DNA from: Brachyspira hyodysenteriae ATCC 27164
GTDB lineage: Bacteria; Spirochaetota; Brachyspiria; Brachyspirales; Brachyspiraceae
Direction: 5' to 3'
DNA: 64,000 nt
Assembly: GCF_001676785.2 (NCBI RefSeq)
Contig: NZ_CP015910.2
Span: 2,108,001-2,172,000 of the forward strand
In this document: positions 8,579-58,329 of the stretch, one piece after another
Position numbering within the stretch: the stretch's first letter is position 1
How the letters are laid out: every line of letters begins with the position of its first letter
Program-made: the position numbers and the translations under genes
Notes under the pieces: model-generated
What the model saw: only the letters and a program-made list of their open reading frames with translations
Told to the model about the DNA's origin: nothing
Databases searched by the model: none

Positions 8579-9421
8579 TTACGCTTTTTTTAAAGGTACA
8601 GGAAGGCTTTTTACTGAATTTACTTTTTCATCAGTAATAGCTTTAGTAGGACATTTAGCTATACTTTCATTTGTAACAGCATAATCCTCATAATTAACTA
8701 TAGCAAGATAATTATCAACTTTCATACCGCCTTCTTTAGTATTTTTAACACATATATTACAACCTATACATGCTTTGTCGCAAGCTTTTTTAGCAATAGG
8801 ACCTTTATCTTTAGATTTACAGTAAACATGTATATCTTGAGAAACAGGGTGAATTTCGATAAGTTTCTGAGGACAAGCTTTAACACAAGCACTGCAAGAA
8901 ACACATTTATCTTCAACTATAACAGGCATTCCTGTTTCTTCATCTTTAATAATTGCACCAAAATCGCAAGCTTTCATACAATCATAAAAGCCAACACATC
9001 CATAAGAACATTCTTTATTTCCGCCAGCCATAACAGCAGAAACACAAGTAGGAGCACCTTTATAAACTCTATTAGATTTAGCTATTCCATTATGTCCATG
9101 GCAGAAAATATATGCTCTTGTTCTTTCTTTTTGTTCAGGAGCTACTTTACCTAAAAAATCAGCAACTTTAGAAGCAGTATTAGCACCTCCTACAGAACAG
9201 CCGTCTACAGGAGCTTTATCATCAACTAAAGCCTTAGCAAACTGAGCACAACCTGGGAAACCGCATCCTCCGCAGTTAGCACCTGGAAGCATTTCAGTAA
9301 GTGTTGTAACTCTTTCATCAACTTCAACTTTGAAAATTTTTGAAGAAAATATCAATAAAACAGCCAATATCAAAGCAATTAAGCCTGAAGATATTGAAGC
9401 TACTAAAACAGATGTCATCAT
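8579..9421 (-). CDS. rnfB: Rnf complex iron-sulfur subunit B
   Basis: A 280-residue subunit of the membrane Rnf ferredoxin:NAD oxidoreductase, which couples electron transfer to Na+ or H+ export. An N-terminal membrane helix (residues 7-27) is followed by the conserved Cys cluster CGGCGFPGC plus Cys75 (C50, C53, C58, C75) typical of RnfB. Then come several ferredoxin-like 4Fe-4S motifs, including CVGFYDCMKAC, CVSCSACVKAC and CIGCNIC. It is the last gene of rnfE-rnfA-rnfB, 38 bases after rnfA, and ends at the terminator at 8521. Start at 9421 has AAGGAT upstream; a second Met follows immediately, so the exact start may be one codon later. Confidence 0.95.
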   Translation of the reverse strand: MMTSVLVASISSGLIALILAVLLIFSSKIFKVEVDERVTTLTEMLPGANCGGCGFPGCAQFAKALVDDKAPVDGCSVGGANTASKVADFLGKVAPEQKERTRAYIFCHGHNGIAKSNRVYKGAPTCVSAVMAGGNKECSYGCVGFYDCMKACDFGAIIKDEETGMPVIVEDKCVSCSACVKACPQKLIEIHPVSQDIHVYCKSKDKGPIAKKACDKACIGCNICVKNTKEGGMKVDNYLAIVNYEDYAVTNESIAKCPTKAITDEKVNSVKSLPVPLKKA

Positions 9422-45697: not shown

Positions 45698-45735
45698 AGG
45701 CTGTATCCTTAAATAAAGATACAGCCTATTTTTAT
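45698..45735. terminator. Bidirectional terminator between fruA and the OppA-like gene
   Basis: AGGCTGTATC (45698-45707) pairs perfectly with GATACAGCCT (45718-45727); A-rich before and T-rich after it. Confidence 0.9.
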
Positions 45736-45752: not shown

Positions 45753-47351
45753 CTATTCTAAATAACAATGATGGAATTTATGAAATCCTAGAGAATCATA
45801 ATAAACATCTTTTAATTTAGGAGATACAAGTAAAGGTTCTGTATAATAATATATGGGTATTATAGCTTCTTCTCTCATTAGCATTTCCTCTGCTTTATGC
45901 ATAGTCTGCATCCTGAATTTCTGATCTCCTGAAAGCATAACCTCATTTATCATATCATCATAAGCCTTATTACTATAAACACTGTAATTATTAGGAGAAT
46001 AACTCAAACATAAAGCCATAAAGTTTACAGGATCATCAAAATCTCCATTCCAAGCTCCCCTAGCCATAGTTATATTTCTATCATATCTTGTCTGCAAAAA
46101 TACAGCCCATTCTTCCTGAGTTAAAGTTACATCAATACCAAGATTTTCTTTCCACATCTGCTGAACAGCTTCAAATATTTTTACATGTAATCCAGGATCT
46201 GCTTTAAACTCCATAACAGGAAAACCTTCTCCATTAGGATATCCTGCCTCAGCCATCAATTTTTTGGCTTCTTCTACATTCTTAACATATCCGTCTTTAG
46301 TTATATCTATATATTCTCCTCCGTTTTCTCTGAAATCTCCTTCATAGTCTGATATTCCGAAAGGAACTAAAGCCCCCGCAGGTTTCTCTCCGCCTCTTGT
46401 AATCTGCTCTACTATATAATTTCTGTCAATAGCAAGAGATAATGCTCTTCTTACTCTTACATCTTTTAATATTTCATTAGTTAAATTTAAGCAGTAATAA
46501 TATGATGATATTCTAGGCTTTATTACTATAAGTCCTTCATTTTGAAGTGTCTTTATATCCTGTCTTGGGAAAGATCTTGCAAAATGCAAAGAACCAGCTT
46601 TGACACCTGCAACAGAAGCAGTTTCATTTTCCATAAGAACAAATGTTATTTTATCAGGAACTATATCTTCTATATTCCAATAATTAGTATTTTTTACCAT
46701 TACAAGGCTTTCATCTCTGTTTCTTTCTATAAGTTTGAAAGCTCCGTTTCCTATATAAGTATCAGCATTTAAAGTCCATTCATCTCCGTATTGTTCTATA
46801 ATATCCTTTCTAAGCGGATAAAATGTAGGGAAAGTTAAAAGTTCTAAAAAATATGCTGTAGGAGCTTCTAACTGAACTTCCAAAGTATAATCATCTATTG
46901 CTTTTATACCTAAACTTTCTTTAGGCATATCTCCTGCAGTTATTGCTTTAGCATTTTTTACAGGCTCATGCTGATATCCATATTGACTGCCTGTAGCAGG
47001 ATCAACAACTCTTTGCCAAGAATATACAAAATCACCAGCAACAACTGTTTTTCCGTCTGTCCATTTAGAATTAGTTCTAAGCTTGAATGTATAAGTAAGT
47101 CCGTCTTCGCTTATCTCCCAACTCTCAGCAACTCCTGGAATCAATTTTCCATTCATATCCTTCTCTAGCAATCCCTCAAATGTATGCATCAAATAAAATA
47201 TTGCATCTGAAGTTACATTTATACTAGGATCTATAGTGTTTGGTTCAGGTCCTGTATTAATAAATATAGATATACCATCTTCTGATTTATTATTAGAACA
47301 TGATATTATAAATGATATAAAAATCATAAATAAAATAAATATTTTTTTCAT
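45753..47351 (-). CDS. oppA: Oligopeptide ABC transporter substrate-binding lipoprotein
   Basis: A 532-residue OppA/DppA-type (family 5) solute-binding protein. Signal peptide with lipobox FISFIISC (Cys18), so it is membrane-anchored. The family signature region AESWEISEDGLTYTFKLR near residues 79-96, the WTDGKTV strand and the DPVNFM element near 435 are present. It delivers peptides to an ABC importer whose permease and ATPase genes are not in the window, so it may share a transporter encoded elsewhere. It lies 35 bases downstream of a paralogue (47387), from which it arose by tandem duplication. Confidence 0.94.
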   Translation of the reverse strand: MKKIFILFMIFISFIISCSNNKSEDGISIFINTGPEPNTIDPSINVTSDAIFYLMHTFEGLLEKDMNGKLIPGVAESWEISEDGLTYTFKLRTNSKWTDGKTVVAGDFVYSWQRVVDPATGSQYGYQHEPVKNAKAITAGDMPKESLGIKAIDDYTLEVQLEAPTAYFLELLTFPTFYPLRKDIIEQYGDEWTLNADTYIGNGAFKLIERNRDESLVMVKNTNYWNIEDIVPDKITFVLMENETASVAGVKAGSLHFARSFPRQDIKTLQNEGLIVIKPRISSYYYCLNLTNEILKDVRVRRALSLAIDRNYIVEQITRGGEKPAGALVPFGISDYEGDFRENGGEYIDITKDGYVKNVEEAKKLMAEAGYPNGEGFPVMEFKADPGLHVKIFEAVQQMWKENLGIDVTLTQEEWAVFLQTRYDRNITMARGAWNGDFDDPVNFMALCLSYSPNNYSVYSNKAYDDMINEVMLSGDQKFRMQTMHKAEEMLMREEAIIPIYYYTEPLLVSPKLKDVYYDSLGFHKFHHCYLE

Positions 47352-47386: not shown

Positions 47387-49027
47387 TCAATCTTCTAAAT
47401 ATGCTTTCACAAAACTATGCTGTCCCATAGAATCATACAAAACACCCTTCAATTTCGGTGATACTAATATAGGTTCAGTAGAGAAATATATAGGTATTAT
47501 TGCCATATCATTAATTAATAATTCTTCAGCCTTATGCATAGTCATCATTCTATGAGATAAATCAGTAATTAATGTAGCTGTCTTTATCAAATCATCATAC
47601 CTTTTATTACTATAAAGACTATTATTATTAGGAGATGTACTTAAAAATACAGAAAGGAAATTTATAGGATCATTAAAATCTCCATTCCAGCCTCCGCTTG
47701 CAATTTCAAAATTTTTATCGAATCTTTGATTAAATAAATCTGATAATTCTAATTCTTCTATATTTACTTCAATACCTAAATTTTCTTTCCACATTTTTTG
47801 TATTGCTTCAAATATATTTTTATGTACTCCATAAGTAGTTTTTAAAGTCATTACAGGAAAACCATTTCCATTTGGATACCCAGCAAGTATCATAAATCTT
47901 TTTGCTTCTTTGATATTATTCTCATAATTTTTTTGATCTATGTCTATATAGTCTCCGCCATTTTCTCTAAAATCTCCAAAAAATCCAGGTATACCATAAG
48001 GTACAAAAGCAGCAGCCGGCCTTTCTCCATTTTTAGTAATATTTTCAACTATATAATTTCTATCAATTGCAAGTGATAATGCCTTTCTTACATTTATATC
48101 AGATAATGCTTTATTAGTTGTATTTAAAAAGTAAAAATATGTTGATATTCTAGGAACACTATGTATATATCCGGCTCTTTGCAATGATATTATATGCTCT
48201 ATAGGAAAGTTTCTTGAGAAATGGAGCAATCCGTTTTTCATAGAATTTAAAGAATATTGCGGATCATTTTTCAATATAAACTCTAATCTGCTTGGTATAA
48301 CTTCTTTATTATTCCAATAAAATTCATTTTTTTCCATTATAATAACTTCACCTATTTTTCTATCTACAACTTTAAATGGACCGTTTCCTATAAAAGTATC
48401 AGGATTTTCAGTCCAATTATCTTTATATAGATTTATTATATCCTCTCTCAAAGGATAAAATGTAGGATAGGATAAAATTTCAAGAAAATAAGTTAATGGC
48501 ATATCCAAAACTATTTCTAATGTATAGTCATCTATAGCTTCTACACCTAAATATTTAGTTTCCATTTCACCATTAAGAATATTTTTAGAATTATTAATAA
48601 AATTATATTGATATGCAAATTTACTTTTAGTATTAGGATCAAATAGTCTTCTGAAAGAATAAACAAAATCTTTTGCTAAAACAGGATTGCCGTCAGACCA
48701 ATAAGCATCTTGTCTAAGATTAAATGTATATACAAGACCATCAGAACTTATATTCCAACTTTGAGCAGCTGCCGGTATGATTTTACCGTCTTTATCTTTA
48801 CTTACTAAACCTTCAAATATATGATTCAAATATATTAAACTGTCACCTGTTACATTTTTACTAGGATCCATAGTATATGGTTCTTGTCCTATATTTATGA
48901 GCAATGAAAAATACTTGCCTGAAGGAGCACTATGATTAATAGTTTCTTCTATTTTTGTACAAGATATAGTTACAGACATCAAAATAATTATGAAAATATA
49001 ATATTTTTTAAACATTCTATTATCCAA
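47387..49027 (-). CDS. oppA: Oligopeptide ABC transporter substrate-binding lipoprotein, paralogue
   Basis: A 546-residue protein closely related to the 45753 product along its length (same WSDG, LAIDRNYIVE and AEELL elements). Lipobox IILMSVTISC, with the lipidated Cys at residue 23. Residues lining the pocket differ between the copies, suggesting different peptide preference. No permease genes adjacent. It is followed by its twin and preceded, on the same strand, by the chemoreceptor array, whose sensors could in principle report on peptides bound by such proteins; that is inference from position. Confidence 0.93.
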   Translation of the reverse strand: MDNRMFKKYYIFIIILMSVTISCTKIEETINHSAPSGKYFSLLINIGQEPYTMDPSKNVTGDSLIYLNHIFEGLVSKDKDGKIIPAAAQSWNISSDGLVYTFNLRQDAYWSDGNPVLAKDFVYSFRRLFDPNTKSKFAYQYNFINNSKNILNGEMETKYLGVEAIDDYTLEIVLDMPLTYFLEILSYPTFYPLREDIINLYKDNWTENPDTFIGNGPFKVVDRKIGEVIIMEKNEFYWNNKEVIPSRLEFILKNDPQYSLNSMKNGLLHFSRNFPIEHIISLQRAGYIHSVPRISTYFYFLNTTNKALSDINVRKALSLAIDRNYIVENITKNGERPAAAFVPYGIPGFFGDFRENGGDYIDIDQKNYENNIKEAKRFMILAGYPNGNGFPVMTLKTTYGVHKNIFEAIQKMWKENLGIEVNIEELELSDLFNQRFDKNFEIASGGWNGDFNDPINFLSVFLSTSPNNNSLYSNKRYDDLIKTATLITDLSHRMMTMHKAEELLINDMAIIPIYFSTEPILVSPKLKGVLYDSMGQHSFVKAYLED

Positions 49028-49082: not shown

Positions 49083-50405
49083 TTATTTTATTAGTTTGAA
49101 ATATTCTATAATATTTTTTAATTCTTCTGATTCCTCAGAAAGTGATTTAGAGTTTTCAGAAGCCTCATTTACAAATTTATAATTGCTGTTTGATTTATGT
49201 TGTTCATGTAGCACTTCTGATTTAGAATAATAAATTTTTCCTTTTACTGCTTCAATAATATCATTTAAATATTTTATAGTCTTGCCTTCATCTGTATTCA
49301 TATCTATAATTTTATCATCAGTAAATATATAATCTGATTTAACTTTAGTTTTATTAAAAAAATTTATTACAGGTATTACTTTCTTATTTATGATATTAGG
49401 TACTATAATTATTATTAAAATAATCATTATAGAAACCATAATTCCAATCATTATAGCAATTTTATAATTATTTTTTAATACCATAATTGACGGTATCGCT
49501 ACTTCAATTCCCCAATATACATTATCAAATAGATTAATAGGTTTTATAACATGAAAATATCTATTTAAATTTTTAAAATTATATTTTTCTACTATTAAAC
49601 TTTCATTAGAATTAATTATATCTAGTACATTGTAATTATTATAAGGATGATATAAATTAGTAAAATTTTCACCTATAATTTCAATATCATTATTGCAGTA
49701 AATAATATTTCCTCTTTCATCGAATAAAGTAGTTGTAATATTTTCTCCTTTATTGAAATTCATACTATCTGAACTTACATCCAAACCAATTACTCCTATA
49801 ATTTCATCATCATTTGAAAATATAGGCATCAAACAAGTTTGTACTTGCTTGTATCCGTTTTGTGTCTGAATAGTATATATAGGAGTTATACACATCTCTT
49901 TTTTTTCTATTGTATCATCTATAAATGATAATTTTAAATATAAATTTTCAGCGCTGAATCTTGATATATTACCATTTTCATCTTTGGCCATGTATATTCC
50001 AAATTGTCCGTTTATATTTTTATATAGACTATTATTTTTATACATACTGTCATTATCAATAACATTTGGAAGAAATATTAAAAAAACTGCCTCAACATTT
50101 TTACTTATTTTTTTAGAGAATTTATACATAAAATTTTCGTATATATTTCTATTTTTTATATTACTGCTGTATAATTCTTCAGCAACAAGTTTTATACTTT
50201 TCATATAATTTAATTCATTATTAATTAAATCTCTCATATTTAATAATTCAACTTCAGATATATGCTCTACCGTTACTAATGAATCTTTTTTAGAAATATT
50301 AAAAGTATGTATAATGGCCACAATGCCTGATATAACTATTATTATTATTGTAGGTATTATAACAAATAAACTTGCTTTTATATTTAAACTATTTTTGCTA
50401 TTCAT
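49083..50405 (-). CDS. Chemoreceptor-like sensor lacking the signalling module
   Basis: A 440-residue relative of the receptors at 51865-58200. It has the first membrane helix (about residues 10-30), the periplasmic Cache sensor and the second helix (about 316-338). Only about 100 cytoplasmic residues follow: a degenerate HAMP, then directly the receptors' last segment (SLSEESEELKNIIEYFKL matches [18 protein letters not shown]). The methylation helices and the tip that contacts CheA and CheW, about 190 residues, are missing. The frame is intact, so this is an in-frame internal deletion, not a simple nonsense pseudogene. Could act as a decoy or heterodimer partner, or be decaying. Confidence 0.85.
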   Translation of the reverse strand: MNSKNSLNIKASLFVIIPTIIIIVISGIVAIIHTFNISKKDSLVTVEHISEVELLNMRDLINNELNYMKSIKLVAEELYSSNIKNRNIYENFMYKFSKKISKNVEAVFLIFLPNVIDNDSMYKNNSLYKNINGQFGIYMAKDENGNISRFSAENLYLKLSFIDDTIEKKEMCITPIYTIQTQNGYKQVQTCLMPIFSNDDEIIGVIGLDVSSDSMNFNKGENITTTLFDERGNIIYCNNDIEIIGENFTNLYHPYNNYNVLDIINSNESLIVEKYNFKNLNRYFHVIKPINLFDNVYWGIEVAIPSIMVLKNNYKIAIMIGIMVSIMIILIIIIVPNIINKKVIPVINFFNKTKVKSDYIFTDDKIIDMNTDEGKTIKYLNDIIEAVKGKIYYSKSEVLHEQHKSNSNYKFVNEASENSKSLSEESEELKNIIEYFKLIK

Positions 50406-50445
50406 AATATTATAAAATTTAATCCCAAAAATATTTTTTATATTT

Positions 50446-51843
50446 TTATTCTCTTAGTCTAAAATATTTTATTATTTTTTGTAAATCCCTTGACTCTTCT
50501 AAAAGAGACTTTAAATTTTCATTTACATTACTTACAATCCTTGAATTTTGATTTTGTTCCATTTCATTGTTATTGCTTAAGTCATTAATTTTATATACAA
50601 ACTCAGATATATTATTTGAGTTTTCAGAAATTTTATTAGCACTTCCTTTTACAGCAGTAATCAAATCATTTAAATATACTACTGTATTATCAATTTCTCT
50701 GCTCATATCTCCAATTTCATCATTCATATTTAAATAGTTTTCAGAAACGCTCCAAGATATATCGCCTTCCTTTATTTTTGTAATATTATCATTTAAATTA
50801 TTCATTATTGATAATACCCTTTTATTAATAATAAATGGTACAGTAATAAATATTAAAATAATTGTTACCGCTATAATAATCCATATCATTATTATAATTT
50901 CATAATGATTAAAGAATTCTGCCTTACTATCAACAGCTAATTCTATTCCCCAATATAAATCATCAAAAATATGAAGAGGCTTATAAAAATTGAAATATTT
51001 ACTTGAATTTTTTTTATTATATGATTCCTTCAAAATAGTATTATTAGAATATATTGTATTTTCTAAATCACTGCTTTTATATACATCTGATAAATTAGTA
51101 ATGTTTTCTCCTATACTATATATATCTGTTGTACAGTACATAATATCACCATTTTCATTAAATAGCGATATTGTAAATCCGTTTGTATCTTCATAAAAAA
51201 TTATATTCTCTAAAGATATTTTTAATGAGGATACAGCCGCAACATTACCATCTTTGGAAAATATTGGTATTGAGTATGTATACATAGGCATATATTTTCC
51301 AAGTATAGGATAATAATTCAATTTTGTAATATAAGGTTTTCTAGTTTCTACAATGGTATCAAAATAAGTGAACTGCAAATCTGACATATCCATATTGATT
51401 CTATCTATATTATTTTTATCTTTAAAAAAAGATATTCCCAATCTGCCTTCAATATCTTTATAAAGAGGATTATTAATATACATATTATCGTTATCAACAG
51501 CATTATCCGAAAAGATTAAAGATACAGAAACAGCATTAGTACTCATTTCATTTGCAAGACTATTCATTAGATATTCATATAAACTTCTTTGTCTTACATT
51601 ATAATTATATAGATTTTCTACAGAATATTTTACATTATTAAGATAATTTAATTCCAAGTTAATAATACTTTCTATTTCATATACTTCTTTTTCAGCCATT
51701 TGAGATATTATAAATAATGTCATTTGTTTTGTCATTTTATATGTATATATTGTATTTATAACACCAAATACTAATATTATTATTGTAATAGGTATTAAAA
51801 TAAATAAACTTATTTTTATATTTAAACTCACTTTATTATTCAT
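50446..51843 (-). CDS. Chemoreceptor-like sensor lacking the signalling module, second copy
   Basis: A 465-residue protein built like the one at 49083: membrane helix, Cache sensor with the DNMYINNPLYKD element, second helix (about 325-346), and here a well-kept HAMP (KIKEGDISWSV, then LNMNDEIGDMSREIDNTV). After about 40 residues it jumps to the receptor terminus (NENLKSLLEESRDLQKIIKY). The kinase-control hairpin is absent. The deletion end points differ from those of the 440-residue copy, so either two deletions occurred or they diverged after duplication. It sits 21 bases after the intact receptor gene at 51865, probably in one transcript. Confidence 0.85.
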   Translation of the reverse strand: MNNKVSLNIKISLFILIPITIIILVFGVINTIYTYKMTKQMTLFIISQMAEKEVYEIESIINLELNYLNNVKYSVENLYNYNVRQRSLYEYLMNSLANEMSTNAVSVSLIFSDNAVDNDNMYINNPLYKDIEGRLGISFFKDKNNIDRINMDMSDLQFTYFDTIVETRKPYITKLNYYPILGKYMPMYTYSIPIFSKDGNVAAVSSLKISLENIIFYEDTNGFTISLFNENGDIMYCTTDIYSIGENITNLSDVYKSSDLENTIYSNNTILKESYNKKNSSKYFNFYKPLHIFDDLYWGIELAVDSKAEFFNHYEIIIMIWIIIAVTIILIFITVPFIINKRVLSIMNNLNDNITKIKEGDISWSVSENYLNMNDEIGDMSREIDNTVVYLNDLITAVKGSANKISENSNNISEFVYKINDLSNNNEMEQNQNSRIVSNVNENLKSLLEESRDLQKIIKYFRLRE

Positions 51844-51864: not shown

Positions 51865-53814
51865 TTACTGCAATTTAAAGTATTCAATAACATCTATAAG
51901 TTCATTAGCCTCCTTGAGTAGTGCCTGAGAAGCTGCTGTGGCCTCCTCTACTAAAGCTGCATTCTTTTGTACAGAAGAATCCATATTTGTAATTGCAAAA
52001 TCCACCTGCTCTATTCCCTTCTGCTGCTCTTGAGAAGCTACATTAATTCTATCCATTATATTAGAAGCACTATCCATTTTTACAGATATATCTTCAAATA
52101 TTTCCTTAGATTCTTTTACACTTTTAGAAGCTAAATTAGTTTTTTCATTACTGTCAGTTATTAAAGCTGTAATACTTTTTACTGATTCCTGAGTATTCTG
52201 TGCTAAATTTCTTACTTCACTAGCTACTACAGCAAAACCTCGTCCCTGATCTCCAGCACGAGCCGCCTCTACTGAAGCATTAAGTGCAAGTATATTAGTT
52301 TGAAAAGCGATATCTTCTATAAGTTTAGTAATATCCATTATTTTAGTGCTGGCTTCATATACATCATTCATTTTATTAACACTATCCTCTACTATAGCAC
52401 CAGCCTTATTCAAAGATTCTTTGGCATCTGATACCATAGAAGTACTTTCTGCAACACTCTCTGCAGATTCCTTTATAGTACTAGCCATTTGATTCATAGA
52501 TGCTGCTGTTTCTTCCAGACTTGAAGCCTGAGATTCTGTTCTCTGTGCTAAATCATTATTACCTTCTAAAACTTGATTTGCTTCGGTAGAAACCCTTTCA
52601 GCAGCACTTTTTACTGTTCTTACAACTTTATTCAAATTATTAACTATATTATCTAAACTCTTAGCTATATCTCCCCATTCATCATTCATATTAATAAATG
52701 TAGGTGATATTCTGAATGATATATCTCCATTAGAAATTTTCTGCATATCTTCTGATAAGAATACTATTATTCTTACAACCTTATTTCTAATTATAATAGG
52801 TATCATTATAGATGCTATTATAATAATAAGAAGAGATATAATTATCATAACATTTCTTATAATATTACTGTCTTTGAAAATATCTTTATTAGAAGCCATT
52901 ATTTCAAGTATCCAATATTGTCCGGTTGATACTTCTAATGGTACAAAAAAATATGTTGCTTTTCCTTTATAATAACTAGTATAATTTTCAAATGATACTG
53001 TACCTCCGCTGGACAATTTCTCAAATACATTATAATTTTTATATTGAGAATATAAATCATACATATTCTTACCCAAATTTTCAGTTTCCCCAGCATCATA
53101 CAATACATTGCCATAATGATCATACAATAATCCTTCTGAATTTTCAAAAGGTTTTATATTATTCATAGTAGGATTTAATGTTTCTATTTTTATGTCGGCA
53201 GTTATAACACCTATAGGTTTATTTTGATACATTATAGGTATAGCCCAAGTATACATTTTTACTACATCATTATTTCCTAAATCAAAATCATATATACCTG
53301 ATAAATACTCTTTCATTTTTGATATAGGCTCTGTATAATAATCAGCATTTATATCATTAGCAGATAAAGCCCTCTCCTCAATATTATTTCCAGATGATCT
53401 TGATATATAATAAGTTTGCTGTCCTTTTGTTAAAGGATAAACATTGCTGTATGCCGCATCATTACCAACTATATTAGGCTCAAAAGCAAGCATAACACCA
53501 ACTACTGTTTGAGGAAGTATTCCAAAAAAATTTTTAGTTACAATCTCATAAGCATTTCTATCCATAACACCTGAATTATACATATTTTCTATTGTATATT
53601 TTAATCCAGTTATTTGATAGAGATCTTCTTTCACTACAGCAGTTAATTGATTCCCTTCTCCCTTTGCAACCTCTTCTAATATTTTATATGATAATTTAGT
53701 ACTAGCATTCTGTACATAGATAATATTAACTATATTTGATATTGCTATCATTATCAATAATGGTATTAATATAATTAAACTAATTTTTATTTGAAGACTT
53801 ACTCTTTTAAACAT
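51865..53814 (-). CDS. Methyl-accepting chemotaxis protein, array member 1
   Basis: A 649-residue receptor. Helix 1 (about residues 9-30), periplasmic dCache region with the [11 protein letters not shown] element, helix 2 (about 320-342), HAMP ([25 protein letters not shown]), first methylation helix ([19 protein letters not shown]), hairpin tip ([20 protein letters not shown]) and second helix ending in DVIEYFKLQ. No CheR-tethering pentapeptide is seen at the C terminus. The start has AGAGGTTTATTT before it. The signalling half is nearly identical to those of the next two genes, the sensor half is not, a pattern of duplication with sensor divergence or gene conversion. Confidence 0.95.
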
Positions 53815-54028: not shown

Positions 54029-55981
54029 TTAAGATTTCAGCTTAAAATATTCTATAGCTTTAATTAAATCATTAGCCTCACTGAGAAGAGATTCAGAAGC
54101 AGAAGTAGCCTCTGACACTAAAGAAGCATTTTTCTGTACAGATGAATCCATATTATCAATAGCCATATTAACTTGATCAATACCTTTTTCTTGTTCCTGT
54201 GATGCAGTATTAATCTTATCCATTATATTGGAAACATTATCCATCTTTTCTAATATTTCATTGAATATAGTCTGTGATTCTTGTACACTGCTTGCCGCTA
54301 ATTTTATCTTATTATTACTGTCTGTTATCAAAGAAGTAATATTTTTTACTGATTCCTGAGTATTCTGTGCCAAATTTCTTACTTCACTAGCTACTACAGC
54401 AAAACCTCGTCCCTGATCTCCAGCACGAGCCGCCTCTACTGAAGCATTAAGTGCAAGTATATTAGTTTGAAAAGCTATTCCTTCTATAAGTTTGGTAATA
54501 TCCATTATTTTAGAGCTTGATTCATAAACAGCATCCATTTTGTTTACACTATCTTCTATTATAACACCAGCTTTATTTACGCATTCTTTTACATCCATTA
54601 CCATAGATGTACTTTGCGATACACCTTCAGCTGATTCTTTTATAGCACTAGCCATTTGATTCATAGATGCTGCAGTTTCTTCCAAACTAGAAGCCTGAGT
54701 TTCTGTTCTCTGAGATAAATCATTATTTCCTACTAAAACTTCATTTGCTGCATTTGAAACTTGTTCTGCTGATTTTTTTACAGTAGAAACTACATTTCCT
54801 AAATTTTTTAAGGTGTTTTCTAATCCTCTTGCAATATCACCCCATTCATCATTCAATTGTAAAAAGTCCTTTGAAATATGAAAAGATATATCGCCGTTAG
54901 ATATTTTAGTAATATCTCTAGCTGTATATCCTATTAATTTTGTTACTTTTCTCTTTATTATAAAAGGAACTATTACAGCACTTATTATAACTATTAATGC
55001 TGATATTATAAACATTATATTTTTTATTATATTTGACTCTCTCAATATAACATCATTAGGAGCAGTTATTTTTAATCCCCAATATTTTCCTTTTGATATT
55101 TCTACTGGAGTAAATGAATAAGTGTAGAATTTTTTTAATGTTCCGCTGAAATTCTCAAATAGTAAATTTTCTCCGCTTATTATTTTATTGAATACATTAT
55201 GTTTATTGTAGTATGGGTATATTTCATCAAGTGTTTTAGATATATAATCGGCTTTATCACTATCATATACTATAGTTCCTGCATTATCAAATAATGTAAT
55301 TGTTGTTCCTTCAAAAGGTTTTATTTTAGATAATGAATCATAAAGAGAATTCGCAAATACTTCCAAACATATTACACCTATTACTTTATTTGACACTTTT
55401 ATTGGCAAAGACCAAGTATAGAATAAATCTTTATCATTAACAGGTGATTTATATACATCGGATATATATGTTTCTCCTGTACTTAAAGCTTTTGTATATG
55501 ACTCATTTTGAAAAATCTTCATATCAAAATATGAAGCTTGAATTTTAAAGTTGTTGTTTCTTGATAAATAATAATTAAAACGTCCATTTGCAGGACCATA
55601 TTTTTCTGAATTAGTATAATCTGCATCATTGCCTATCATATTAGGCTCAAATGCTATAAGCAAGCCATTAACTTTTTGAGGAAGTTCATCAAAAAAACTA
55701 TATAAAAGTCTTTCATAAAATGGTCTGCTTAAGGTACCATCATTATATAATCCTCTTATAACCCTTTCTAATCCAACAAGAGAATATAAATCCTCATTCA
55801 TATATGATAATAATTGAGCAGCTTCTCCTTTTGAGCTCTCTTCTAATACTCTGTGTGATAAATTCTTACTGGCAGATTTTACATATACAATATTTATAGA
55901 ATTTGAAATAATAAGCATAATTAGTAAAGGAACTAATATAGCCAAACTAATTTTTATTTGAAGACTAAATTTCTTAACCAT
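54029..55981 (-). CDS. Methyl-accepting chemotaxis protein, array member 2
   Basis: A 650-residue receptor of the same layout. I use ATG 55981, with AGGG six bases upstream, rather than the TTG two codons earlier. Its sensor is closest to that of array member 3: both carry [11 protein letters not shown]- or [11 protein letters not shown]-type elements, GRFNYYLSR, and [11 protein letters not shown]- or [11 protein letters not shown]-type strands, so these two are the most recent pair. HAMP, methylation helices and tip ([20 protein letters not shown]) are intact. The C terminus reads AIEYFKLKS. Confidence 0.95.
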
Positions 55982-56247
55982 AATCAACCCTATAAAACTT
56001 ATTTTTTATCTTCATAATAATTATTATACATTTTATATTTGCAATTTCAATAACAAAAAAATTTTATTTATCATTGTTCAAAATATAGCTATAGATATCA
56101 TTATTTTAATAAATTATTAATTTTATTCTCTATTTTATGTAGAATAGTCGATTATATTGATTTATAAAATAAAACACATTAAATATTAATTAATTAATTT
56201 CAGCACATTATTTATCTAGAAATTAATAATGAACTGAAAATTCTATT
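55982..56247. other. AT-rich gap between receptor genes 2 and 3
   Basis: 266 bases without an open frame. Nothing recognisable beyond AT richness; a promoter for array member 2 is expected here but not clearly visible. Confidence 0.4.
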
Positions 56248-58200
56248 TTAATCATTTTTTAAATTAAAATATGCTATAGCTTTTAATAAATCATTAGCCT
56301 CGCCTAATAAAGACTCTGAAGCTGAAGCAGCTTCAGATACTAAAGCAGCATTTTTCTGAACAGAAGCATCCATATTACTGATAGCTGCATTAACTTGATC
56401 AATACCTTTTTCCTGTTCCTGAGCTGCAATATTAATTCTATCCATTATAGATGAATCTCTATCCATTTTTTCTAATATTTCATTGAATATAGTTTGAGAT
56501 TCCTGTACACTGCTTGCAGCTAATTTTATCTTATCATTACTATCTGTAATTAATGAAGTAATACTCTTTACTGATTCCTGAGTATTCTGTGCTAAATTTC
56601 TTACCTCACTAGCTACTACAGCAAAACCTCGTCCCTGATCTCCAGCACGAGCTGCCTCTACTGAAGCATTAAGTGCAAGTATATTAGTTTGAAAAGCTAT
56701 TCCTTCTATAAGTTTGGTAATATCCATTATTTTAGCGCTAGCTTCATATACATCATTCATTTTGTTTACGCTATCTTCAATTATTACTCCAGCCTTATTC
56801 AAAGATTCTTTGGCATCTGATACCATAGAAGTACTTTGAGAAACACTTTCTGCAGATTCCTTTATGGCACTAGCCATCTCATTCATAGATGCTGCTGTTT
56901 CTTCCAAACTAGAAGCTTGAGTTTCTGTTCTCTGGGATAAGTCATTATTTCCTACTAAAACTTGATTTGCTGCTGTAGAAACTTGCTCTGCTGAATGCTT
57001 TACCGTATTTATTATATTATTAAAGTTATACATAGCTTTAGTCCAGCCTCTTGCTATATCTCCCCATTCATCATATCTTTTTTCAAATCCCTTAGGTATC
57101 TCAACAGTTAAATCTCCTTGAGACATAGAAGTAATATCATTAGCTAAAACCTTTATTAAATTTGATACTTTTGTTTTAATTATTATAGGAACTATTATAG
57201 AAATTATAATAATTATCATTAAAGATATTGAAATCATAACATTTCTTATAATATTACTTTCTCTTAATACTTCATCATCAGGAGCTGTTACTTTTAATCC
57301 CCAATATTTATTTTTTGTTATTTCCATAGGAGTAAATGAATATGTATAATATTTTTTCAATGTACCGCTGAAATTTTGGAATAATACATTCTTTCCATTT
57401 ATAATATTTTCAAATACATTGTGAACCCTATAATAAGGATATATATCATGAAGTTCTTTAAATATATATTCTTTTTTATCACTATCATAAACAATAAATC
57501 CAGAATTATCAAAAAGTGTTGTTGTTGTACCTTTAAATAATTTTATATTTTCTAATATATCGTAAATAGATTCTATAAGAACATCTATAGAAATTACACC
57601 TATAGTTCTATTTCCTGATTTTATCGGTACAGACCAAGTATAAATCATAGCATTATTATGCAAAGGAGAACTATATACATCTGTAATATATAATTCTCCG
57701 CTTTTTAAAGTTTCTGTATAATGCTTTTCCTGAAATATTTTATTATCAAAATAATTACCTTTAATAGTATCATTATCTCTTGATAAATAATAATTGAATC
57801 GTCCGCCTGAAACACCATATTTCTCAGAGTTTATATAATCATTATCATTTCCAATTATATTAGGTTCGAATGCTATTAATAATCCATTTACTCTATTAGG
57901 TAAATTATTCAAAAAATTGTATGATGTTTTTTCATAAAAATTTCTATCTAAAATATTATCATTATAAAATCCAGATAAAGTATTAGCTAAACCCATTATA
58001 TGTTCAGCATCTTTATACATAAAAGACTTTAACATCACTACTTCATATTTAGCTTTATTGTCAAGTACACTATATATAAGTTTTATAGTTGATTTTCTTA
58101 CATAGATAATATTGACAATATTTGATATTATAAGCATTATTATTAAAGGCAATAATATAACTAAACTAATTTTTATATTTAAATTTAATTTTTTTAACAT
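56248..58200 (-). CDS. Methyl-accepting chemotaxis protein, array member 3
   Basis: A 650-residue receptor. The longest frame starts at 58254 and would add 18 hydrophobic residues before the normal [19 protein letters not shown] use ATG 58200, preceded by AGGATTATTT, which also gives exactly the length of member 2. Same sensor family, HAMP ([15 protein letters not shown]), methylation helices and intact tip. It is the first gene of the minus-strand array. The gap to member 2 (266 bases) is AT-rich and may hold a promoter. Confidence 0.95.
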
Positions 58201-58329
58201 AATAAATAATCCTAAAACAATTATCAAAATATAGTATAGTATAAATAATACCATTTTTCAATATTAAATTAATTATGCTATAATATTTATTAATAATAAA
58301 ATATATTCAATATTTATAAATAATAATTA

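Follow-up and report, generated by a model that had tools for sequence, protein, structure and literature searches.

Two adjacent genes of Brachyspira hyodysenteriae ATCC 27164, here called A and B, belong, to judge from their sequences, to one Brachyspira-specific family of tip-less chemoreceptors. We put the probability of this family and its retention at about 0.93. B is a working accessory sensor, its partner unproven, rather than a decaying gene: its sensor, its HAMP domain and both stubs of the former signalling hairpin are under strong purifying selection, and the turn between the stubs is relaxed. Our proposal for how B acts, by pairing with intact receptors, is tentative and falls somewhat short of even odds.

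Gene layout and the missing signalling module

The window, a stretch of 64,000 nucleotides (contig NZ_CP015910.2, positions 2,108,001 to 2,172,000), carries the receptor cluster on its minus strand in the gene order E, D, C, B, A, SBP2, SBP1. The genes around the locus are receptors, OppA-like lipoproteins, a MATE gene and fructose-PTS genes.

56248..58254, minus strand: E, intact dCache receptor with an MCPsignal match
54029..55987, minus strand: D, intact dCache receptor with an MCPsignal match
51865..53814, minus strand: C, intact dCache receptor with an MCPsignal match, 21 bp upstream of B
50446..51843, minus strand: B, open frame of 465 aa
49083..50405, minus strand: A, open frame of 440 aa
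49048..49076, minus strand: promoter-like TTGACA-17-TATACT between A and SBP2, conserved in 17 species and in G011
47387..49027, minus strand: SBP2, OppA-like lipoprotein
45753..47351, minus strand: SBP1, OppA-like lipoprotein
45698..45727, minus strand: intrinsic terminator after SBP1

The initial annotation had described A and B as open frames that keep the membrane helices, Cache sensor and C-terminal segment of their full-length neighbours. Both frames are indeed open at the positions listed, and alignment with C, D and E agrees that TM1, the Cache sensor, TM2 and the C-terminal ~30 residues have been kept. The protein encoded by B is divided as follows.

51742..51822, minus strand: TM1, residues 8-34, approximate limits, placed from a modelled helix (7-80) and the hydrophobic stretch
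50929..51741, minus strand: double-Cache sensor, residues 35-305, from AlphaFold and Foldseek
50827..50928, minus strand: TM2, residues 306-339
50650..50826, minus strand: HAMP, residues 340-398, with conserved GD and NDExG
50575..50649, minus strand: N-helix remnant, the start of the descending helix, residues 399-423
50557..50574, minus strand: turn, residues 424-429, standing in for ~190 residues of signalling hairpin and lying within the relaxed region 421-434
50449..50556, minus strand: C-helix remnant, the end of the ascending helix, residues 430-465, ending in IIKYFRLRE

Alignment and model both place the sensor of B between two membrane helices and give its periplasmic part a double-Cache fold. 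B falls under the Pfam cut-offs for Cache families, and its sensor model resembles the dCache domains of MkcA, PctD, TlpQ and Tlp1 in the PDB with E values down to 1.5e-17 (Foldseek). Pfam reports no HAMP in B; by alignment the domain is complete, with both its GD and NDExG motifs. The AlphaFold model, a monomer built from a 67-sequence alignment (mean pLDDT 79, tail about 50-75), predicts a long helix running through HAMP AS2 (376-423), a turn and a return helix (430-459), which together would make a mini-hairpin. A passes PF22673 and, in the alignment, is without the HAMP connector and the GD/DExG motifs. It ends in a segment that is invariant over 16 residues in seven species.

49086..49133, minus strand: C-terminus of A, residues 425-440, ESEELKNIIEYFKLIK

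The MCPsignal domain (PF00015), which C, D and E all match, has no match in A or B. From the NDExG of the HAMP to the terminal YF[KR]L there are 86 residues in B versus 268 in C, a net loss of 182 that comes close to the figure of about 190 first proposed. The cut is near-symmetric around the hairpin tip, with ~92 residues gone before it and 98-99 after it. A methylation consensus occurs zero times in A, zero times in B and twice in C. The suggestion that both methylation helices had been lost thus holds for the consensus sites and less so for the helices themselves, since B retains ~25 aa of the start of the N-helix and ~30 aa of the end of the C-helix. B also has no NWETF-like motif corresponding to the CheR/CheB pentapeptide, an optional feature of MCPs defined as a C-terminal pentapeptide on a flexible linker (PMC7390727). 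IIKYFRLRE ends directly on the helix, and we reject a role as CheR/CheB tether because the pentapeptide is absent. By the defining tests of signalling hairpin and methylation, A and B are chemoreceptors by descent and not functional MCPs.

Two places where the lost hairpin might have been found were considered and rejected. It is not encoded in another frame nearby, as there is no MCPsignal match between C and SBP2, and it is not supplied in trans by a separate tip-only protein, as the genome is without a short intact MCPsignal protein; its two shortest MCPsignal proteins are halves of broken receptors. The genome from which the window comes gave ~39 Cache and 50 MCPsignal matches, and these include no intact short Cache protein other than A and B. 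Because of this, and because the layout of B is identical in 15 species, chance or misassembly is ruled out, on the sequence comparison, as the source of the A/B layout.

Distribution, origin and selection

B is open in 15 of 26 Brachyspira genomes (15 species, B. innocens and B. alvinipulli included) with lengths of 462-476 aa, ~465 aa being typical. A sixteenth copy (G029, Brachyspira sp. G79) has one frameshift and extends into a gap in the assembly. A full-length orthologue of B was not found in the 26 Brachyspira genomes. Beyond the genus, no tip-less relative was detected, either in 296 Spirochaetota genomes or by scanning 84,980 species for the pattern; two short candidates outside Brachyspira are genes cut by contig ends. 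Of the nine species with A, seven have an open frame and two, both represented by MAGs, a broken one: several disruptions are seen in G032 and a single frameshift in G033.

The surroundings of the short genes vary among the carriers. In G003, A alone is left at the locus, without B and the other receptors, and G024 and G026 have retained B with its neighbour C either reduced or deleted. C is intact in 13 of 17 carriers, compared with 15 of 17 for B. In G011 (L135, 7527-7664) the entire receptor cluster is cleanly absent between SBP2 and the MATE gene, both flanks being intact. The AT-rich genome of G003 has a GC-rich stretch just upstream of A (L034, at most ~260 bases upstream of position 9010), which may be a deletion scar or a repeat.

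A and B had been regarded at the outset as two independent survivors. This is contradicted by a maximum-likelihood tree built from the sensor region alone. In it the second copy of G010, a genome with its own tandem pair of tip-less copies, groups with A and B in a single clade (99/99), and every intact receptor in the comparison falls outside; the same tree leads us to reject two separate deletions in A and B. Because these three sequences form one clade, a single tip loss followed by duplication is the parsimonious history of A and B, which are paralogues ~41% identical to each other. In this history an ancestral dCache receptor lost ~92 residues before and ~98 after the hairpin tip. The remnant is a short bundle below the HAMP, closed by a turn, and lacks the CheA/CheW site, the trimer-of-dimers contact and the methylation sites. 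Duplication of the gene followed, after which, as the comparison among species shows, B stayed intact and A kept eroding. The deletion end points do differ between the two genes, as first noted, but the difference reflects later erosion of the HAMP in A.

We estimated omega for each segment by a pooled codon-model likelihood fit over near-independent species pairs. For B this gave 0.069 for the sensor, 0.135 for TM2, 0.069 for the HAMP, 0.135 for the N-stub (399-420) and 0.115 for the C-stub (435-465), with 0.61 for the turn region (residues 421-434); some of the species pairs are near synonymous saturation and the absolute values, here and below, are rough. The corresponding values for A are 0.115 (sensor), 0.26 (HAMP) and 0.10 (C-stub), and those for the intact receptor C are 0.042 (sensor), 0.069 (HAMP) and 0.026 (the hairpin missing from B). 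All segments except the turn of B are far below 1, and the HAMP of B is as constrained as that of C.

The proposal of a retained function is supported by these data, and the support is stronger for B, whose frame is intact in 15 species and whose sensor and HAMP have omega of about 0.07, than for A, which is broken in two of nine. Full-length relatives together with strain-specific stops or frameshifts had been named as the sign of decay, and at the species level B does not show this pattern. Stops, frameshifts and relaxed selection, taken as marks of a pseudogene, are absent from B in 15 species and present in A in only two of nine. Conservation and omega together lead us to reject decay of B.

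Decay of receptors as such is common in the genus Brachyspira. In the window's own genome two other Cache receptors are split by in-frame stops or frameshifts (G000:C1:1082371-1083699 and 1794026-1795650), and in-frame TAA codons interrupt receptors in G002 and G012 too. A itself contains a poly-A tract on the coding strand (window 49899-49906, at about residue 167), and the frameshift of G033 falls at the same tract (L074 near 11269). Phase variation or simple decay are both possible explanations of that frameshift. The tract has 8 A's in this genome only and is shorter or interrupted elsewhere, and one frameshift in one MAG is insufficient to argue for phase variation of A.

The gap between C and B measures 13-80 bp in all 13 species with both, and that between B and A 13-40 bp. 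Because of these short conserved gaps we infer that C, B and A probably form one operon. No intrinsic terminator was found in the C-B, B-A or A-SBP2 gaps. The SBP genes are probably a unit separate from the receptors, which makes their adjacency to A and B weak evidence of joint function.

Possible modes of action of B

We propose that B would still dimerise and that its HAMP would still switch upon ligand binding. Without a tip of its own it would work sideways, pairing with tip-bearing dCache subunits through the HAMP and the membrane-proximal bundle, and such pairing would lower or re-tune the output of intact receptors, making B a built-in attenuator. With about 50 receptors encoded in the genome, its partner could be one other than C. 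Indeed, the earlier suggestion that A and B modulate their intact neighbours is weakened for C, D and E themselves by the three species described above, in which A stands alone or B is accompanied by a reduced or deleted C. The truncated copies persist where adjacent receptors are lost or broken and thus can do without these neighbours. A dedicated partnership with the adjacent C is weakened for the same reason.

Several observations bear on pairing in general. B and C are 0.38 identical in the HAMP and 0.41 in the C-stub, compared with 0.24-0.26 in the sensor, and at 26 of the 36 invariant HAMP and stub positions of B the residue is the one usual in intact receptors. This likeness in the cytoplasmic part fits lateral pairing a little better than it fits an entirely new partner in the cytoplasm; the ten B-invariant residues that differ could mark another partner. 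The probable co-transcription of B with C also speaks for pairing. RetS, which inhibits GacS via a heterodimeric interface (PMC12148439), is a general precedent, as are PDB entries titled as YvaQ-McpB and McpB-McpC cross-linking models. Against pairing, B and C share only 26% identity in the periplasmic helix, through which receptor subunits usually pair. The description of native MCPs as homodimers (PMC4692393) also counts against it, as do the persistence of B or A in genomes with a lost or reduced C (G003, G024, G026, and possibly G029 with its copy at the assembly gap) and the survival in seven species of an A that has lost its HAMP.

A rather unlikely alternative is that B forms a homodimeric transmembrane sensor and uses its HAMP and mini-hairpin to signal to a non-Che cytoplasmic partner. 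The equality of HAMP constraint with an intact receptor fits this reading, as do the B-specific invariant residues W364, Y370, S381, Y390 and I419 and the persistence of B without its receptor neighbours; at the same time the locus has no conserved gene that could be a candidate for such a partner, and most invariant residues of the tail are those of ordinary receptors. It is unlikely, too, that A and B are membrane-anchored periplasmic ligand binders that buffer or present a ligand, perhaps with OppA-like lipoproteins. Strong constraint on the sensor and the survival of A without a HAMP are in its favour, but a pure binder would have no need of a HAMP at omega 0.069. The same reading could draw on SBP2, which directly follows the receptor genes in all 17 carriers and is missing from eight of nine non-carriers. 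This co-occurrence is confounded by shared descent, however, and SBP2 has its own conserved promoter, which is retained in G011, where the receptor genes are missing and the upstream gene is a different one, so that the adjacency may be passive and a functional link between A/B and SBP2 is weakened. OppA-like solute-binding proteins are a large family in Brachyspira, with 8-19 per genome in this search.

Mixed A/B dimers, in which A and B would work mainly together and A would modulate B, are suggested by the closeness of the two paralogues in sequence and position and by the tandem pair in G010. We consider such dimers quite improbable, given that B occurs without an intact A in nine species (eight if the second copy in G010 is counted as A) and that G003 has A without B. 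That both genes are decaying remnants is more improbable still. The breaks in A in G032 and G033, its eroded HAMP, the frameshifted B of G029 at the assembly gap and the loss of the whole cluster in G011 point that way, but the frame of B is unbroken in 15 species, its omega lies far below 1 outside the turn, and it is intact in more carriers than the full-length C beside it.

Relation to known systems and biological meaning

A and B share with the dCache MCPs PctD, TlpQ, MkcA and Tlp1 the two membrane helices around a dCache sensor and, in B, the HAMP, and with the neighbouring receptors the YFKL helix end at the C-terminus; they differ from these MCPs in having no MCPsignal hairpin, CheA/CheW site, trimer contact or methylation sites. 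RetS of P. aeruginosa is alike only in the proposed logic, a receptor-like protein pairing with a related intact sensor (PMC12148439); it is a histidine kinase with cytoplasmic domains rather than a chemoreceptor. SMP_2 is a Cache-superfamily sensor without known output (PMC4822843), but it belongs to another Cache family, is reported from proteobacteria only, and the layout of dCache, HAMP and receptor tail is not described there. We found no precedent for a natural tip-less chemoreceptor in the open-access literature, most subscription journals lying outside this coverage.

According to a published survey, Cache sensors apart from SMP_2 had been seen only in proteins that carry an output signalling domain (PMC4822843). 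A dCache-HAMP protein that has had its output removed and is under selection in about 15 species is an exception to that survey. If B pairs with intact receptors, methylation would not be the only means by which bacteria tune receptor output, the composition of subunits being another; should B signal elsewhere instead, a receptor-type HAMP would have an output as yet undescribed. On sequence grounds it is conceivable, if unlikely, that the tip-less class as a whole consists of dedicated ligand-gated subunits that silence or re-tune tip-bearing receptors in mixed dimers, a layer of control undescribed in other bacteria. B. hyodysenteriae is attracted to mucin, and 46 receptors have been reported for it (PMC2650404). 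The effect could bear on the navigation of mucus by gut spirochaetes.
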